DNA of 23,906 nt from the IMG/VR virus record IMGVR_UViG_3300042691_010701, positions 1 through 23,906 of that record; one strand, given 5' to 3'. Made by a program: the position numbers and the translations under genes. Every line of letters begins with the position of its first letter. Positions within the stretch are counted from its first letter, which is position 1. The notes under the pieces are model-generated. The model saw only the letters and a program-made list of their open reading frames with translations. It did no database searches and was not told the origin of the DNA. The DNA is from a virus. Positions 3,878 through 15,479 of the stretch are shown here, in pieces.

Positions 3878-4542
3878 TGAGTGCGGCAAATATTATTTTA
3901 GGTGCTACAGGTGGAGGAAATCTTTTAAGATTAACCACTTTTACATCATCAGGCACATGGACTAAACAGGCAGATGTTGCAAGGATTTTGGTTTATGTTG
4001 TTGGTGGTGGTGCGGGTGGGAATGGGGCAACTTCTACAGCTTCCTCATTCGCAGGAGGATCTGGTGGAACATCATCTTTTGGGGTTCACTGTTCTGCAAG
4101 TGGCGCCCCTGGTGGTTTAACTACATCAACTTATGGCATAGGATCAGGTGGTGATATAAATCTCAGAGGATCTGGATCTGTTGGTAACACAAGATATATG
4201 GCTTCAGCTATCTCAAATTATACGTGTGGATTAAAGGGTGGAGATAGTATATTTGGGGGTGGCGGACTTGGTTATCCAGGTAGTTCATCAACTGGTGCAG
4301 GGGCAGGGCTCCCAGGAGTTAATGGTGGAGGTGGTGGAGGTGCTGGATATAGAGATGGTGTTAATAATTATCATTGCCAAGGGGGAGGGAGTGGTGGTTG
4401 TGCTATTAAATTAATTCAAGCAACATCTCTTGGATCTACGGTAACGGTCACTATTGGTGCAGGTGGATCAGCATCAGGGGGAGCACAGCCAGGTGGTGCA
4501 GGCGGTGCAGGAATTGTGGTTATTTATGAATATGGGTATTAA
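3877..4542 (+). CDS. Glycine-rich adhesin-like tail protein
   Basis: A 221-aa protein with a short lead, then FTSSGTWTKQ followed by ILVYVVGGGAGG, and many GGG blocks through to the end (FGGGGLG, GGGGGGAGY, GGSGG, GAGGAGIVVIYEYGY). This is the glycine-rich domain often found at phage tail-fibre tips, where polyglycine loops form a sandwich that contacts the host surface. The position after the hub cluster and before the small fibre-associated gene at 4544 fits a receptor-binding role. CpG is less depleted here than in the hub gene, which fits frequent exchange of adhesin genes, but glycine codons also contribute. Confidence 0.75.
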   Translation: MSAANIILGATGGGNLLRLTTFTSSGTWTKQADVARILVYVVGGGAGGNGATSTASSFAGGSGGTSSFGVHCSASGAPGGLTTSTYGIGSGGDINLRGSGSVGNTRYMASAISNYTCGLKGGDSIFGGGGLGYPGSSSTGAGAGLPGVNGGGGGGAGYRDGVNNYHCQGGGSGGCAIKLIQATSLGSTVTVTIGAGGSASGGAQPGGAGGAGIVVIYEYGY

Positions 4543-9202: not shown

Positions 9203-9862
9203 CTACCTTTTGTTTTTAGCTTCAATAAGTTTTGATGCTTCAGATTTAGTGACATTATCAGGGAAAGAGATCCCCATTTTCCTCATCGCATTTTTTTGGG
9301 CATCAGACGCAGGTGTGTTATTTCCTGTACCCACAGATGGTGACTGGGTGTCACTCTTTACATTGGAGGAAACATGATCCCATTGTTTGATTGATGGTTC
9401 ATTTTTCCAAGAATTTTCCCAGTCTCTAGACTCTTCATCATCTAAAGACTCAAGCATGAATGTTTTAAGGTAGCAGTATTTTATAGCCATTGAGTATGCC
9501 TTCCCTGTGGCTTTGTCACCAGAGTCTAAGGCATAGGCAAAACACTGTGTTTGAAACTGATCAGACCTATCATCAGAGTTTATAAAAGTAACTGATGCCC
9601 AGACCTTTACTAAAAAACTTTTTGAGGTGGTGGTCTGTCCTTGATAGGTTTTAGATTGCTCAAAAATTTCTAAATCACAAGTCTCCATCCTTGGCATAGC
9701 CACTATGCCTGCGTTTGCAATAGGATCATGTAACAATGAAGTTACATCATCATGAGAAACTGCAGTGTAGGATGATCTGTCATTTATTTTAACAGTCGAT
9801 CCTTTGTTTACTGATTTAACTTGTTTTTGAACGTCGTTGATTCTTTGGAATAAAGTCTTCAT
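9203..9862 (-). CDS. erf: ERF-family single-strand annealing protein
   Basis: A 219-aa protein with the ERF core: YTAVSHDDVTSLLHDPIANAG near the N-terminus, LVKVWASVTFIN, and GDKATGKAYSMAIKYCYLKTF followed by the acidic DDEESRD at about residues 115-145. ERF proteins anneal complementary strands in phage recombination. The C-terminal third is a polar linker plus a small helical end (DAQKNAMRKMGISFPDN), as in ERF and RecT relatives. I chose ATG 9862, which has AGGTGG upstream, over a GTG three codons earlier. It overlaps the gene upstream by 47 bases. Confidence 0.85.
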   Translation of the reverse strand: MKTLFQRINDVQKQVKSVNKGSTVKINDRSSYTAVSHDDVTSLLHDPIANAGIVAMPRMETCDLEIFEQSKTYQGQTTTSKSFLVKVWASVTFINSDDRSDQFQTQCFAYALDSGDKATGKAYSMAIKYCYLKTFMLESLDDEESRDWENSWKNEPSIKQWDHVSSNVKSDTQSPSVGTGNNTPASDAQKNAMRKMGISFPDNVTKSEASKLIEAKNKR

Positions 9863-10046
9863 AGTTTCCACCTTGTTTAATATGCTCTCTTAAGAGCTTT
9901 GAAAAATAGTCTAATGGTTTTAATCCGTCAATCAGTTTGGAAGACCTTACACACTTGCAGGAAGTGGATGAAACTACATCATCACCTTTGTAGTTAAGCT
10001 CATACCAATCTCTGCACTTATGACATCTGATGATTTCTGCAGTCAT
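9816..10046 (-). CDS. Small zinc-ribbon-like Cys-rich protein
   Basis: A 76-aa protein with CHKC at residues 8-11 and SCKC near 29-32, likely a small zinc-binding site made of two Cys pairs. The C-terminal half is helical and charged. It sits between the loader-like protein and ERF, directly after the loader-like stop, so a role in replication or recombination is likely but unproven. No named family is recognised. Confidence 0.65.
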   Translation of the reverse strand: MTAEIIRCHKCRDWYELNYKGDDVVSSTSCKCVRSSKLIDGLKPLDYFSKLLREHIKQGGNYEDFIPKNQRRSKTS

Positions 10047-10676
10047 TTAAAGTCCATGTTGTTTAGCGTATGATTTCAATGGATTAAGAAAATAATCTAA
10101 ATCTTTATCCTGTGCCTTTTGATTAGACATAAGACCTTGCTTGAGTAGCTTTTCACCATCACCAAAGTAGCATCTGCACCAATCATTAAGGACCATCATC
10201 TCTTTATGTCTGGTATTAAAATGCTCACAGTCTGGGACAATCCTTTTCATGTAAATCAAAACCATCTGATCTAATTGCTCTTGTTTAAACATGGTTAAGA
10301 ATTTGCCTTTTAAATGGTCATAGCATCTGATAGTAAGATCGGTTAGCTCATCCACCTTAATCTCATCCTTGGTTAAATGTGGTTTAATGAGTGCCATGAT
10401 CTCTTGCAGTGTGGGATGCTTATCCATTTTAAATGGGATGGTCTTGCAAATAGAGGCAATCAATTGATGCTTATACCCCATTAAGGAAAGATCCTTTGCC
10501 CAGGTCTGGATGGTGGTCTGAGATGGTGATCTCTCAAATCTTAGTGCCATTTCCCTAAGATGATTCTCAATCTCTGCACAATGGACATCTGTGGACTTAT
10601 CAGATCCCTCAAGTCTTCTCTTTGATGCGTGATCACTCCATCTATCAGTATGATCAACCATGTGTTTTGCAGACAT
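10047..10676 (-). CDS. Replication loader-like protein, first gene of the - operon
   Basis: A 209-aa protein with AAGGAT just upstream of the ATG. An N-terminal polar region is followed by a helical domain with SQTTIQTWAKDLSLMGY and later KHPTLQEIMALIKPHL. The order Trp-x-x-x-L, a long helix, then Pro-T-x-x-E-I resembles G39P-type phage helicase loaders, where this domain binds the replicative helicase. The C-terminal region is Cys- and His-containing (DCEHFNTRHKEMMVLNDWCRCYF) and unrecognised. Being first gene of an operon with SSB, ERF and RusA, but no helicase, fits recruitment of the host helicase. The assignment rests on a weak pattern. Confidence 0.5.
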   Translation of the reverse strand: MSAKHMVDHTDRWSDHASKRRLEGSDKSTDVHCAEIENHLREMALRFERSPSQTTIQTWAKDLSLMGYKHQLIASICKTIPFKMDKHPTLQEIMALIKPHLTKDEIKVDELTDLTIRCYDHLKGKFLTMFKQEQLDQMVLIYMKRIVPDCEHFNTRHKEMMVLNDWCRCYFGDGEKLLKQGLMSNQKAQDKDLDYFLNPLKSYAKQHGL

Positions 10677-10875
10677 AAAGATCCTTTGTTATGAAGATTT
10701 CTTATCATAAGATTTTATGTAGAAAATTATTTTATCACTAAACAATGAAAAGATTTCCAAATATAATTTAAAAGATAAATGAAAACCAATAGTTATTTTA
10801 TTTCTTGTTAATGTATCTAGTTGATAACTCTTTCACTGCTATTGATTATCATCACCAAACTTATCGCATCAGGTA

Positions 10876-10904
10876 TTGACACAGAAAAACTGGCCTGAGA
10901 TAAG
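10876..10904 (+). promoter_or_regulatory. Candidate + strand promoter
   Basis: TTGACA at 10876-10881, a perfect -35 box, lies 17 bases before GATAAG at 10899-10904 (four of six to TATAAT). Transcription would run rightwards through the G-runs and hairpins to the terminator at 11220-11257. Confidence 0.5.
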
Positions 10905-10921
10905 GGGGGATATAAGGGGGG
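10900..10921 (+). repeat. Tandem ATAAGGGGGG repeat
   Basis: ATAAGGGGGG occurs at 10900-10909 and again at 10912-10921, a 12-bp period. Two six-G runs close together are striking in a genome with GC in the high thirties. They overlap the predicted -10 box and start site. They could be a protein-binding site, half of a G-quadruplex, or an origin element. Confidence 0.7.
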
Positions 10922-10986
10922 TTTCTTAAACTTCCTAGATAGTCTTTCTTCCAAATCTTAAAAAGAAAATACTTTTCAATGTCTTG

Positions 10987-11035
10987 GTTTCCACTTGCCC
11001 CGATAGGGGTGAGTGCATGATGCACGAATGGAAAC
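10987..11035 (+). other. Three-way-junction / cruciform-capable element
   Basis: A closing stem pairs GTTTCCA (10987-10993) with TGGAAAC (11029-11035). Inside it are two hairpins: CCCC-GATA-GGGG at 10998-11009, extendable by G-U and A-U pairs to seven pairs, and GTGCAT-G-ATGCAC at 11013-11025, an almost perfect palindrome. All three stems are perfect or wobble-paired and nested without conflict, which is unlikely by chance in 49 bases. Confidence 0.65.
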
Positions 11036-11219
11036 GAGAAAACACACAGGATGTGGGTAGTCTTGTAGCACAATCTTATTAACTAATACTAAACTTCCCT
11101 AAACTCTTTATAGATTTAAGCAGTAGTGGATCATAGTTGATTAATAAGATAATCTATGCAATCATCCTTTTAAGAATGAAATCTAAATGAATGTCAAACT
11201 CAGGGATCAATTCTTAAAT

Positions 11220-11257
11220 GGTGGTAGCTTTATATCCTTTTAGCTATCACCTTTTTT
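11220..11257 (+). terminator. Intrinsic terminator before the exonuclease gene
   Basis: GGTGGTAGCT (11220-11229) pairs with AGCTATCACC (11242-11251) over ten pairs with one G-U, a 12-base loop, and is followed by TTTTTT at 11252-11257. It is directional: the opposite strand has no T-run. It lies 36 bases upstream of the ATG at 11294, so it either ends an upstream RNA or attenuates the operon. Confidence 0.8.
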
Positions 11258-11293
11258 CTTTTCATCCTCAAAATTTATTGAAATCATTTCTCT

Positions 11294-12259
11294 ATGAAGA
11301 AAGTAGAGGAACATGAGCTAGTCGCAAAGATTAAAGAGCTACATGCTGAAAGTGGTAAAACCCCTACTCTAAAAGAGTTTTCAGAGTTTTTCTCTACATC
11401 CACAGCCCATAAGCACGGATGGAATAATTTAATTAAAAAAGCAGGTCTCACACCTAACATGACTCATGTGTCTGCACCTGATCTTTTAGTCCATAAGTGG
11501 GAAGCAAAGATCCTATTTCTAGATATAGAGACAAGTGCTTTGCTAGTCAGGACCTATGGCCTATTCAACCAAAATATTCCTATCCAGAACATAGTGGAAG
11601 ATTGGTCTCTACTTTCATACTGTGCCCAGTTTCATAATGATGACACAGTCTACTATTTAGATCAGCGTTATGCCTCACACCACACAGATGACAGGCAGCT
11701 AGTGGAAGGGATCCATGACCTTATAAGGCAGGCAGACATTATCGTGGCCCACAACATAGACTTTGACTGGGGAAAACTAAATGCCAAGTTTATCAAGTAT
11801 GAACTAGATCCACTTCATCCCAAACAGATCTGCACACTCAAGATGACTCGAAAACTAATGAAGAAAGGGATCACATCTAAGAAATTAGAGTTCCTTGCTA
11901 AGTGGCTAGGATGCACACCTAAGGATCATCACAATGAGTTTCCAGGTGGTAAGTTATGGGAAGAGTGCCTCAATGGTAACATGCGTGCCTGGGATGCTTG
12001 TGAGGCATACAATCGCCAAGATGTGGCCACGTTGATCGAGTGTTTTTGGAAGCTAGTGAGATATGATGTTTCAATAAACTTTTCTATCTATGAGCATAAA
12101 AACAAGTGCATTTGTGGATCTGAGCATTTTATCCGAGATGGTTATAAGGTAACTAACTCTAGCAAAAAGATGCGGTTTAGGTGTAGTGCATGTGGCAAAG
12201 TCTTTACTGCCAGGGTGGAGGAGCTTCCATCTAAGTTAAAGCAGGGACTATTTCAATAA
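11294..12259 (+). CDS. RNase H-like 3'-5' exonuclease with N-terminal HTH-like and C-terminal zinc ribbon
   Basis: A 321-aa protein with three parts. Residues 10-52 (TPTLKEFSEFF, then HKHGWNNLIKKAGL) resemble the small DNA-binding helices found beside HNH endonucleases. Residues 71-260 are an RNase H-like DEDD exonuclease domain: LFLDIETS (Asp77, Glu79), VAHNIDFDWGKL (Asp156), CTLKMTRKLM, and AYNRQDVATL (Asp243). Residues 272-304 form a zinc ribbon from Cys272, Cys274, Cys297 and Cys300. The domain mix suggests a nuclease targeted to specific DNA or RNA. It has no clear ribosome binding site and begins 36 bases after a terminator, so expression may need its own start or antitermination. Confidence 0.75.
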   Translation: MKKVEEHELVAKIKELHAESGKTPTLKEFSEFFSTSTAHKHGWNNLIKKAGLTPNMTHVSAPDLLVHKWEAKILFLDIETSALLVRTYGLFNQNIPIQNIVEDWSLLSYCAQFHNDDTVYYLDQRYASHHTDDRQLVEGIHDLIRQADIIVAHNIDFDWGKLNAKFIKYELDPLHPKQICTLKMTRKLMKKGITSKKLEFLAKWLGCTPKDHHNEFPGGKLWEECLNGNMRAWDACEAYNRQDVATLIECFWKLVRYDVSINFSIYEHKNKCICGSEHFIRDGYKVTNSSKKMRFRCSACGKVFTARVEELPSKLKQGLFQ

Positions 12260-12319
12260 AAGTAAACAAGTCAGTCTTTTAATCCTTTATCACTTAAAAT
12301 AAACCGATAAACTTTTAGT

Positions 12320-12634
12320 ATGAGAAAGAAAACTTTTCCTAAAAAGATGGTTATCCTGGGCAGAAAATTCAAGATCTCTGTGGTCAATAAGACTAAGCTC
12401 TGCACTATCACCACACCAGATGCAGTGGCCTGCGTGGACTTCTCAGATAATCATGTCTACATCTGGGATGAGTTAAGTGATGAGCAAAAGATGCTATCCC
12501 TCTTTCATGAGTTATCCCACATCTGCCATGTGACTGTAGGTCTGGATCAGGTTATCTCTGATGAGTTACAAGAGATCCTATGTGAGTCCATGGCCAATGC
12601 GTTTGGTGACATGCTCAAATCCTTCCATAAATGA
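12320..12634 (+). CDS. Small HExxH metallopeptidase-like protein
   Basis: A 104-aa protein with a beta-rich N-terminal half and FHELSHICH at residues 62-70. HELSH (63-67) is an HExxH zinc site, and a downstream Glu in LCESMANAF (Glu89) is placed like the third ligand of ImmA/IrrE-type peptidases, which often have E-x-x-A-N-x-F. ImmA proteins cleave phage or mobile-element repressors. An XRE-type regulator is encoded 480 bases downstream, a plausible partner. No ribosome binding site is obvious. Its stop overlaps the next gene as ATGA. Confidence 0.65.
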   Translation: MRKKTFPKKMVILGRKFKISVVNKTKLCTITTPDAVACVDFSDNHVYIWDELSDEQKMLSLFHELSHICHVTVGLDQVISDELQEILCESMANAFGDMLKSFHK

Positions 12635-15251: not shown

Positions 15252-15260
15252 TGCTATAAT
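15232..15260 (+). promoter_or_regulatory. Promoter of the lipoprotein gene, probable leaderless start
   Basis: TTTACC at 15232-15237 and a perfect TATAAT at 15255-15260 are 17 bases apart. The expected start site lies six to seven bases after the -10, at about 15267, the A of the ATG, so the mRNA may be leaderless. Confidence 0.7.
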
Positions 15261-15266
15261 GGGGAT

Positions 15267-15449
15267 ATGAAAATCTTTATCCTGCTATTATTAGTCTCTT
15301 GCGGTAAACCTACGGAAAAATGCATATCTGGGACCGAAAAGATCTTTCTTTGCAAAGCAGAGGTCGCTTCAAATTTCTATCCATCATCTGCACCACAGAC
15401 TGAATTAGACAGATGTCAGGTCACTTATGTGCCAAATGCCTGTTATTAG
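15267..15449 (+). CDS. Small Cys-rich lipoprotein (possible exclusion factor)
   Basis: A 60-aa protein with a very short signal MKIFILLLLVSC; LVSC is a good lipobox with Cys12 as lipidated residue. The mature part is about 49 aa with four Cys (19, 29, 50, 59), able to make two disulfides in the periplasm or outer membrane. It has its own strong promoter and probably a leaderless mRNA. CpG is clearly more common than in neighbouring genes, suggesting recent gain. Small phage lipoproteins of this kind can block receptors against superinfection; that role is inferred from type, not shown. Confidence 0.7.
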   Translation: MKIFILLLLVSCGKPTEKCISGTEKIFLCKAEVASNFYPSSAPQTELDRCQVTYVPNACY

Positions 15450-15479
15450 TTGACACATCTTAACACATCAAAATAAGAT
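15450..15479 (+). promoter_or_regulatory. Candidate late promoter 1
   Basis: TTGACA at 15450-15455 and TAAGAT at 15474-15479, 18-base spacing. The spacer includes ACACATC twice with a 10-bp period (near 15453 and 15463), which may bind an activator. It lies upstream of the head-gene operon. Confidence 0.4.

Follow-up and report, generated by a model that had tools for sequence, protein, structure and literature searches.

The stretch analysed here, called the window below, is the 23,906-nucleotide viral record IMGVR_UViG_3300042691_010701 of IMG/VR, and our subject is a candidate structured RNA on its + strand. The RNA lies in the spacer 10677-11293 between two divergent operons, a leftward one (first gene 10047-10676) and a rightward one beginning with an exonuclease gene (Table 1). 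The original prediction, made from the letters of the DNA, was that a + strand promoter, a compact three-stem fold and a strong intrinsic terminator bracket about 350 bases without a supported gene, possibly an undescribed phage RNA. The promoter-like site, TTGACA-N17-GATAAG, was found where it had been placed and keeps its spacing in both related contigs that have the region; the consensus promoter scan omits it because its -10 element lacks the final T that the scan demands. The terminator proved as strong as proposed, with 36 bases separating its end from the ATG of the exonuclease gene, and its stem is rebuilt from other bases in the relatives (z score -3.83 for the copy in contig L002, 1 of 200 shuffles as good). 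A terminator scan of 10000-12500 lists none, probably because only loops of 3-8 bases were permitted. As to coding content, the single open reading frame (ORF) of at least 50 amino acids across the core is a minus-strand frame of 70 amino acids with a TTG start (10861-11073), and the related contig L003 has none of that size between its positions 4408 and 5000. Shorter ORFs inside the RNA were considered and dropped, their reading frames not being preserved in the alignment inspected by eye, and a transfer RNA scan returned none.

Folding of the whole region 10876-11260 gives -99.6 kcal/mol (z -2.94, 0 of 100 shuffles as good), and folding of 10981-11040 a z score of -3.81 (1 of 200 shuffles as good). 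The best-supported fold consists of a three-way junction (10981-11039), followed by a short hairpin motif (11045-11055), and the junction is the local folding optimum both in the phages and in a 90-nucleotide core from the bacterial genome G131 introduced below. The related contigs, L002 and L003, were retrieved by searching with the exonuclease (88% protein identity); they come from a single metagenome, and both contain the region. The spacer is less conserved than the exonuclease gene, its conserved islands being the promoter, the junction, a block at 11174-11201 and the terminator. In the three phages 69 of 69 alignment cells of the junction are paired, none of the 23 pairs is broken and five are double-changed; the ten paired bases at which the window differs from its relatives are these five double changes. 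Slid versions of the structure pair 41-52% of cells. The three-stem claim therefore holds, and the covariation analysis proposed with it finds compensating changes, which amount to effectively one comparison because L002 and L003 are mutually close.

Table 1 Features of the spacer and of the predicted RNA (positions in the window).
Feature	Position	Strand	Remarks
Promoter-like site TTGACA-N17-GATAAG	10876-10904	+	TG one base 5' of the -10 element; spacing same in L002 and L003
G-rich tract, G6-N6-G6; GGGAGGGGTGGGGGAGGG in relatives	10904-10921	+	at the predicted 5' end
Predicted transcript	10910-11257	+	about 348 nucleotides; start inferred from the -10 element, end from the terminator
Helix P1	10982-11039 (10982-10993 with 11029-11039)	+	11 pairs; double changes in 3 in the phages, in 10 of 11 in the wider set; 100% paired in three phages
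Helix P2 (UUGCCCC/GGGGUGA)	10995-11012	+	7 pairs; no change among the phages; double changes in 3 in the wider set
Helix P3 GUGCAUGAUGCAC	11013-11025	+	5 pairs; double changes in 2 in the phages and in 4 in the wider set; junction GAA (11026-11028) next
Hairpin P4 CACAGGAUGUG, CsrA-like loop CAGGAUG	11045-11055	+	motif present in all three phages and, in total, in 26 of 27 copies; only 3 base pairs in the phages
Alternative hairpin, ACAGGAU pairing with GUCUUGU	11046-11066	+	6-7 pairs, hiding GGA; preferred in 89-90-nucleotide local folds of all three phages
Second conserved block GAATGAAATNNAAATGAATGTCAAACTC	11174-11201		26 of 28 positions identical in three phages
Intrinsic terminator, stem 11220-11229/11242-11251 and T6 11252-11257	11220-11257	+	-15.3 kcal/mol, z -6.52, 0 of 200 shuffles as good
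RNase H-fold exonuclease gene, opening the rightward operon	11294-12259	+	phrog_403 (E 3.5e-63), PF13482

Core-pattern scans of viral records, with the window's own record excluded, returned the same two contigs only, or none, and phage and plasmid collections gave DNA matches at chance level only. A short P2/P3 pattern matched two loci of the Bdellovibrionaceae metagenome-assembled genome SI075_bin85 (G011), on whose name we call the phylum searched Bdellovibrionota, and one Bacteroidales locus. Three models were then in use: R1, built from the phages only; R2, a 36-nucleotide model from the phages and the two G011 loci; and R3, built from 15 sequences (3 phage, 10 G131 and 2 G011). R2 found ten copies in G131, a genome of the same phylum as G011. 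When R1 was applied to 19 given loci (the phages and the R2 picks; 55 kb), the ten G131 loci scored E values of 1.5e-7 to 2e-4 and two of the three G011 loci 6e-4 and 7e-4. R3 detects the RNA in G131 (11 copies), G256 (4), G011 (3), G183 (3), G064 (2) and G257 (1). The best E values in genomes outside its training set, 7.5e-8 (G257), 1.4e-7 (G183), 6e-6 (G064) and 1.2e-4 (G256), are lower than expected by chance over the 368 genomes searched; the weakest single copies (E 0.003-0.006) are insufficient alone. These copy numbers may be too low, because the large genome searches score just 11-18 candidates per genome. Among 363 genomes of the phylum of the Bacteroidales locus R3 gave no match at E≤0.01, a zero that speaks to specificity only because no genome there is known to carry the RNA, and the Bacteroidales match itself (L030) was taken as chance since its genome gives no R3 match at E≤1. 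Single R2 matches in G209, G279 and G349 (E 0.002-0.007) were not recovered by R3 and are uncounted; R1 gives the G209 locus an E value of 0.0014 among the loci supplied to it. Rfam has no gathering-score match in the window or in seven bacterial loci. Lax scans produced only sub-threshold matches to other families, the best in 10800-11320 being to a small nucleolar RNA family at E 0.52.

The wider alignment comprises 27 copies, 26 of them distinct, and is biased toward the fold, having been fitted to the model. Over the 26 distinct rows 94.0% of 529 cells are paired and 17 of the 23 pairs are double-changed; none of 500 shuffles reaches any of five measures, and slid versions pair 34-50%. The fold also prefers one strand: 497 of the 529 cells pair on the RNA strand and 441 on the opposite strand. 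The difference is due to conserved G-U pairs, of which one is kept in 23 of the 24 copies that have letters there. The preferred strand is the direction of the phage promoter and terminator, and the RNA is presumably transcribed from the + strand. The fold and the RNA family are thus well supported, and the suggestion of an undescribed phage RNA is borne out by the compensatory changes in the phages, the lack of a gathering-level Rfam match and the homologous structured elements elsewhere. What emerges is a structured RNA that Rfam does not list, supported by covariation in phages and bacterial genomes alike.

The genomic settings of the bacterial copies vary. In G256 a single copy has long flanks. 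It follows the stop codon of a 288-amino-acid transposase, a sub-threshold match to the IS1 model, and precedes the right end of an element that has AAAACTGGCCCACAT at both ends. The G183 copies are each preceded by an identical 82 bases, which in the copy translated end in a short C-terminus resembling that of the G256 transposase, and both G064 copies adjoin an IS110 transposase gene on the opposite strand. The eleven G131 copies sit in repeat units of roughly 170-330 bp, flanked by ordinary genes in the three loci examined; at contig C35 (L070, L072) two tandem copies have one inverted weak match alongside, which at E 0.0004 falls outside our E limit of 0.0003. The two G011 copies examined lie shortly downstream of genes. 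The family thus travels partly with mobile DNA, and not with one kind. These arrangements invite the view that the element is a transposon structure, either a folded end like those of repetitive extragenic palindromic (REP) sequences and miniature inverted-repeat transposable elements (MITEs) or an RNA part of an insertion sequence used in transposition, which the phage captured. The transposase families differ, however, and the G064 copies run against their transposase gene; no transposase occurs among the phage proteins scanned, yet the phages preserve the fold by double changes, and strand-specific G-U pairs suit an RNA better than a DNA cruciform. We regard this origin, one of two main rivals of the reading proposed below, as quite unlikely. 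IS110/IS1111 elements encode a bridge RNA, or seekRNA, and a structured RNA adjoining the IS110 transposase of G064 is a likeness to it; the copies there are on the opposite strand to the transposase, whereas others accompany another transposase or none that was seen. For that strand, and with no transposase among the window proteins scanned, an identity with bridge RNA was rejected.

The second recurrent feature is the hairpin P4 on the 3' side of the junction. Three to nine pairs close its loop, CA(N)GGA(T/A)G, which is present in every copy save one from G131, on stems of different bases (CAC/GUG, GAGCC/GGCUC, AAAAC/GUUUU, AGAAC/GUUCU, AAGAC/GUCUU), and shuffled tails yield a hairpin of this type in 0 to 4.2% of cases. 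The same type of motif stands at P3 in 20 of the 27 copies, with at least three contiguous pairs in 15 of these; it is missing from the three phages, two G011 copies, one G064 copy and one G131 copy, the last two having GGA. Both positions carry it in 19 of the 24 bacterial copies. The repeat of the RNA CsrB reads CAGGA(U/A/C)G. For the translational regulator CsrA, the review PMC7652899 gives a consensus, RUACARGGAUGU, obtained by systematic evolution of ligands by exponential enrichment (SELEX), with GGA in a hairpin loop mostly on four or fewer pairs. The P4 loop agrees with this consensus in 26 of 27 copies, R being absent from the phage loop. The gene csrA (PF02599) was found in all nine bacterial genomes tested (5 of 5 and 4 of 4), six of which carry the RNA, and in 0 of 4 viral records.

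We tentatively read the element, by the best supported of the mechanisms considered, as a member of a structured RNA family, borne by mobile elements, that works like the CsrA-binding RNAs and that in the phage would act as a free decoy or an attenuated leader. According to this proposal, a + strand RNA of about 350 nucleotides would have as its core the three-way junction (P1, P2, P3 and GAA) followed by P4 showing CAGGAUG, and the junction would be a scaffold displaying GGA loops to the CsrA of the host. The phage RNA would be made from its own promoter and would mostly end at the terminator (11257), and the free RNA would draw CsrA from its targets; alternatively, CsrA binding would set the level of readthrough into the exonuclease operon. 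Transcription, CsrA binding, its titration, the timing of these events and the host are what we infer. A broader version, in which the RNA would be a CsrA-binding module common to unrelated mobile elements of Bdellovibrionota (the phage, MITE-like repeats and insertion sequences of two or more kinds), drawing off CsrA to free their own messages or to push a predatory host between life phases, we consider doubtful.

Several observations weigh against this proposal. CsrB-type RNAs have many CsrA sites, and each phage RNA has one conserved GGA hairpin because its P3 loop, AUGAU, is without GGA in all three phages; the remaining GGAs of the window are predicted to be paired. The phage P4 has three base pairs, and local folds favour the hairpin that buries its GGA, leaving P4 a probability of 0.09 in the window, 0.01 in L003 and 0.04 in L002; the values for the full transcript are 0.19, 0.98 and 0.17. 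The rival pairing may be a switch, or the phage RNA may no longer use the GGA site. The junction itself is reproduced by only part of the energy folds: the innermost P1 pair has a probability of 0.53 in the full-length fold of the window, 0.73 in L002 and 0.02 in L003, so that the junction is missing from the predicted transcript of L003; P1 formed in one of four folds of G011 copies, and two 212-nucleotide G131 units folded into other pairings. Fitting to the model biases two of the alignments, A14 and A16, toward the structure. The RNA is limited to 6 of 368 genomes of the phylum, several copies lie in or beside transposons or repeat units, and their orientation relative to neighbouring genes is variable.

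The position just ahead of the exonuclease gene raises the further question of a leader acting in cis, in which the junction or a factor bound to it would allow the exonuclease operon to be read by altering polymerase or terminator. The consensus scan of the window lists no promoter between terminator and ATG, the layout is retained in L002 and L003, no Shine-Dalgarno-like sequence is seen in the bases upstream of the exonuclease, and the alternative P4 pairings offer a possible switch. Against this, the bacterial copies of the core follow a transposase gene or are intergenic, without such a leader layout, and a promoter outside the scan consensus could precede the exonuclease. A purely cis-acting leader, the other main rival, is in our judgement unlikely. 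The lambda leader pR'-6S RNA-tR' and the put RNA of HK022, the latter of the antiterminator type, are phage leader RNAs that likewise combine a promoter, a short structured leader and a terminator 5' of a phage operon, and the layout here is compatible with a put-type antiterminator RNA acting in cis. No antiterminator was identified here, neither of those RNAs is known to share the shape or sequence of the junction, and relatives are found outside leaders.

Two of the three roles first offered for the RNA, free RNA and attenuated leader, are accordingly retained in our proposal; no result points to the third, an origin-linked RNA, which was hardly tested. Such an RNA would prime replication through an R-loop at the G-rich tract. 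All three phages have this tract at the 5' end predicted for the transcript, the RNA lies between divergent operons, and no helicase or primase is named among the proteins scanned. On the other side, the scans covered just ten proteins per library, the polymerase names in them belong to exonuclease matches, only short repeats were found, and the G tract differs in the window. We hold this role to be highly improbable.

To return to the CsrA-decoy proposal, the closest known RNAs are CsrB/CsrC and RsmX/Y/Z, which resemble this one in being non-coding, in their hairpin loops of the CsrA-site type and in that csrA is present in the bacterial genomes with relatives. This RNA differs in its three-way-junction scaffold, in having one or two sites and not many, in its repetition in genomes and transposons and in being phage-borne. 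It is not to be filed with the CsrB/Rsm class because it has no Rfam match and because the phages show one conserved GGA hairpin (3 of 3) in place of the multiple GGA loops of that class. The merRNA of Bdellovibrio bacteriovorus, a cyclic di-GMP riboswitch RNA, is presented in PMC3627812 as a proposed sponge in a predatory bacterium; the likeness is the proposed RNA sponge, and the difference is that the phage RNA matches no Rfam riboswitch. Neither a CsrA decoy carried by a phage or transposon nor a description of this RNA was found in the literature searched, outside which lie most subscription journals and preprints. Other identities were dropped: HEARO or omega RNA of IscB or TnpB (no Rfam match, and as neighbour an exonuclease that has the RNase H fold and an HNH-associated repeat), a hammerhead-like core (no Rfam match, and bases that do not fit the core) and a mimic of clustered regularly interspaced short palindromic repeats (CRISPR): the window P1 resembles repeat ends of the type GTTTCC...GGAAAC, but the relatives alter these bases. 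Should the RNA bind CsrA, it would show that mobile elements bring with them an antagonist of a global regulator. One possible benefit is suggested by the control of CRISPR-Cas systems through the Rsm/Csr pathway in Serratia, as reported in PMC8450108. The RNA would also provide a handle on Bdellovibrio-like bacteria.

The host of the phage is likely to belong to Bdellovibrionota, the phylum to which a profile of five terminases was applied, and an orphan phage group would thereby be linked to a likely host phylum. The profile matches 3 of the 368 genomes, with a best E value of 6e-150 at G206:C299 (L081), a contig of 16.9 kb whose remaining ORFs are phage-like by eye. R3 did not find the RNA in G206, and a terminase search in named genomes gave no relative. 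IMGVR_UViG_3300031951_000755 (G003; L010/L026) is the same virus, identical at 99.99% over the shared parts, with another start point and without window positions 9712-11833, and an R1 search of it gave no RNA copy; comparison of the two records implies a genome of about 34.5 kb with an assembly break near the RNA.

Some smaller observations concern the region and its surroundings. The GGGAGGGGTGGGGGAGGG of the relatives, at the predicted transcript start, is a sequence of the G-quadruplex type. Within the promoter-like site, window positions 10886-10895 read AAAACTGGCC, which also occurs at the ends of the G256 transposon and in the G131 repeat units and is absent from L002 and L003. The block at 11174-11201 contains two AATGAA motifs spaced 11 bases apart, together with a minus-strand TTGACA, and could be an operator or an antisense promoter; antisense targets for it in the window were rejected, with four matches at up to three mismatches, one being its own site, against 2.0 expected, and 17 of 100 shuffles reaching four. 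The exonuclease has a homing-endonuclease-associated repeat at its N-terminus and, by eye, zinc-ribbon-like cysteines at its C-terminus. TATAAT at 15255-15260 lies six bases 5' of an ATG (15255-15267), which suggests a leaderless message for a small lipoprotein-like ORF. A second promoter-like site, TTGACA-N16-AATAAG at 15450-15477, precedes the packaging genes, so that the window has two such sites against 0.03 expected for a pattern defined after the fact; it is retained in 3300031787_006050 (L002/L007), in 3300008339_001401 (L009) and in the other contig of the same virus (L004/L010).
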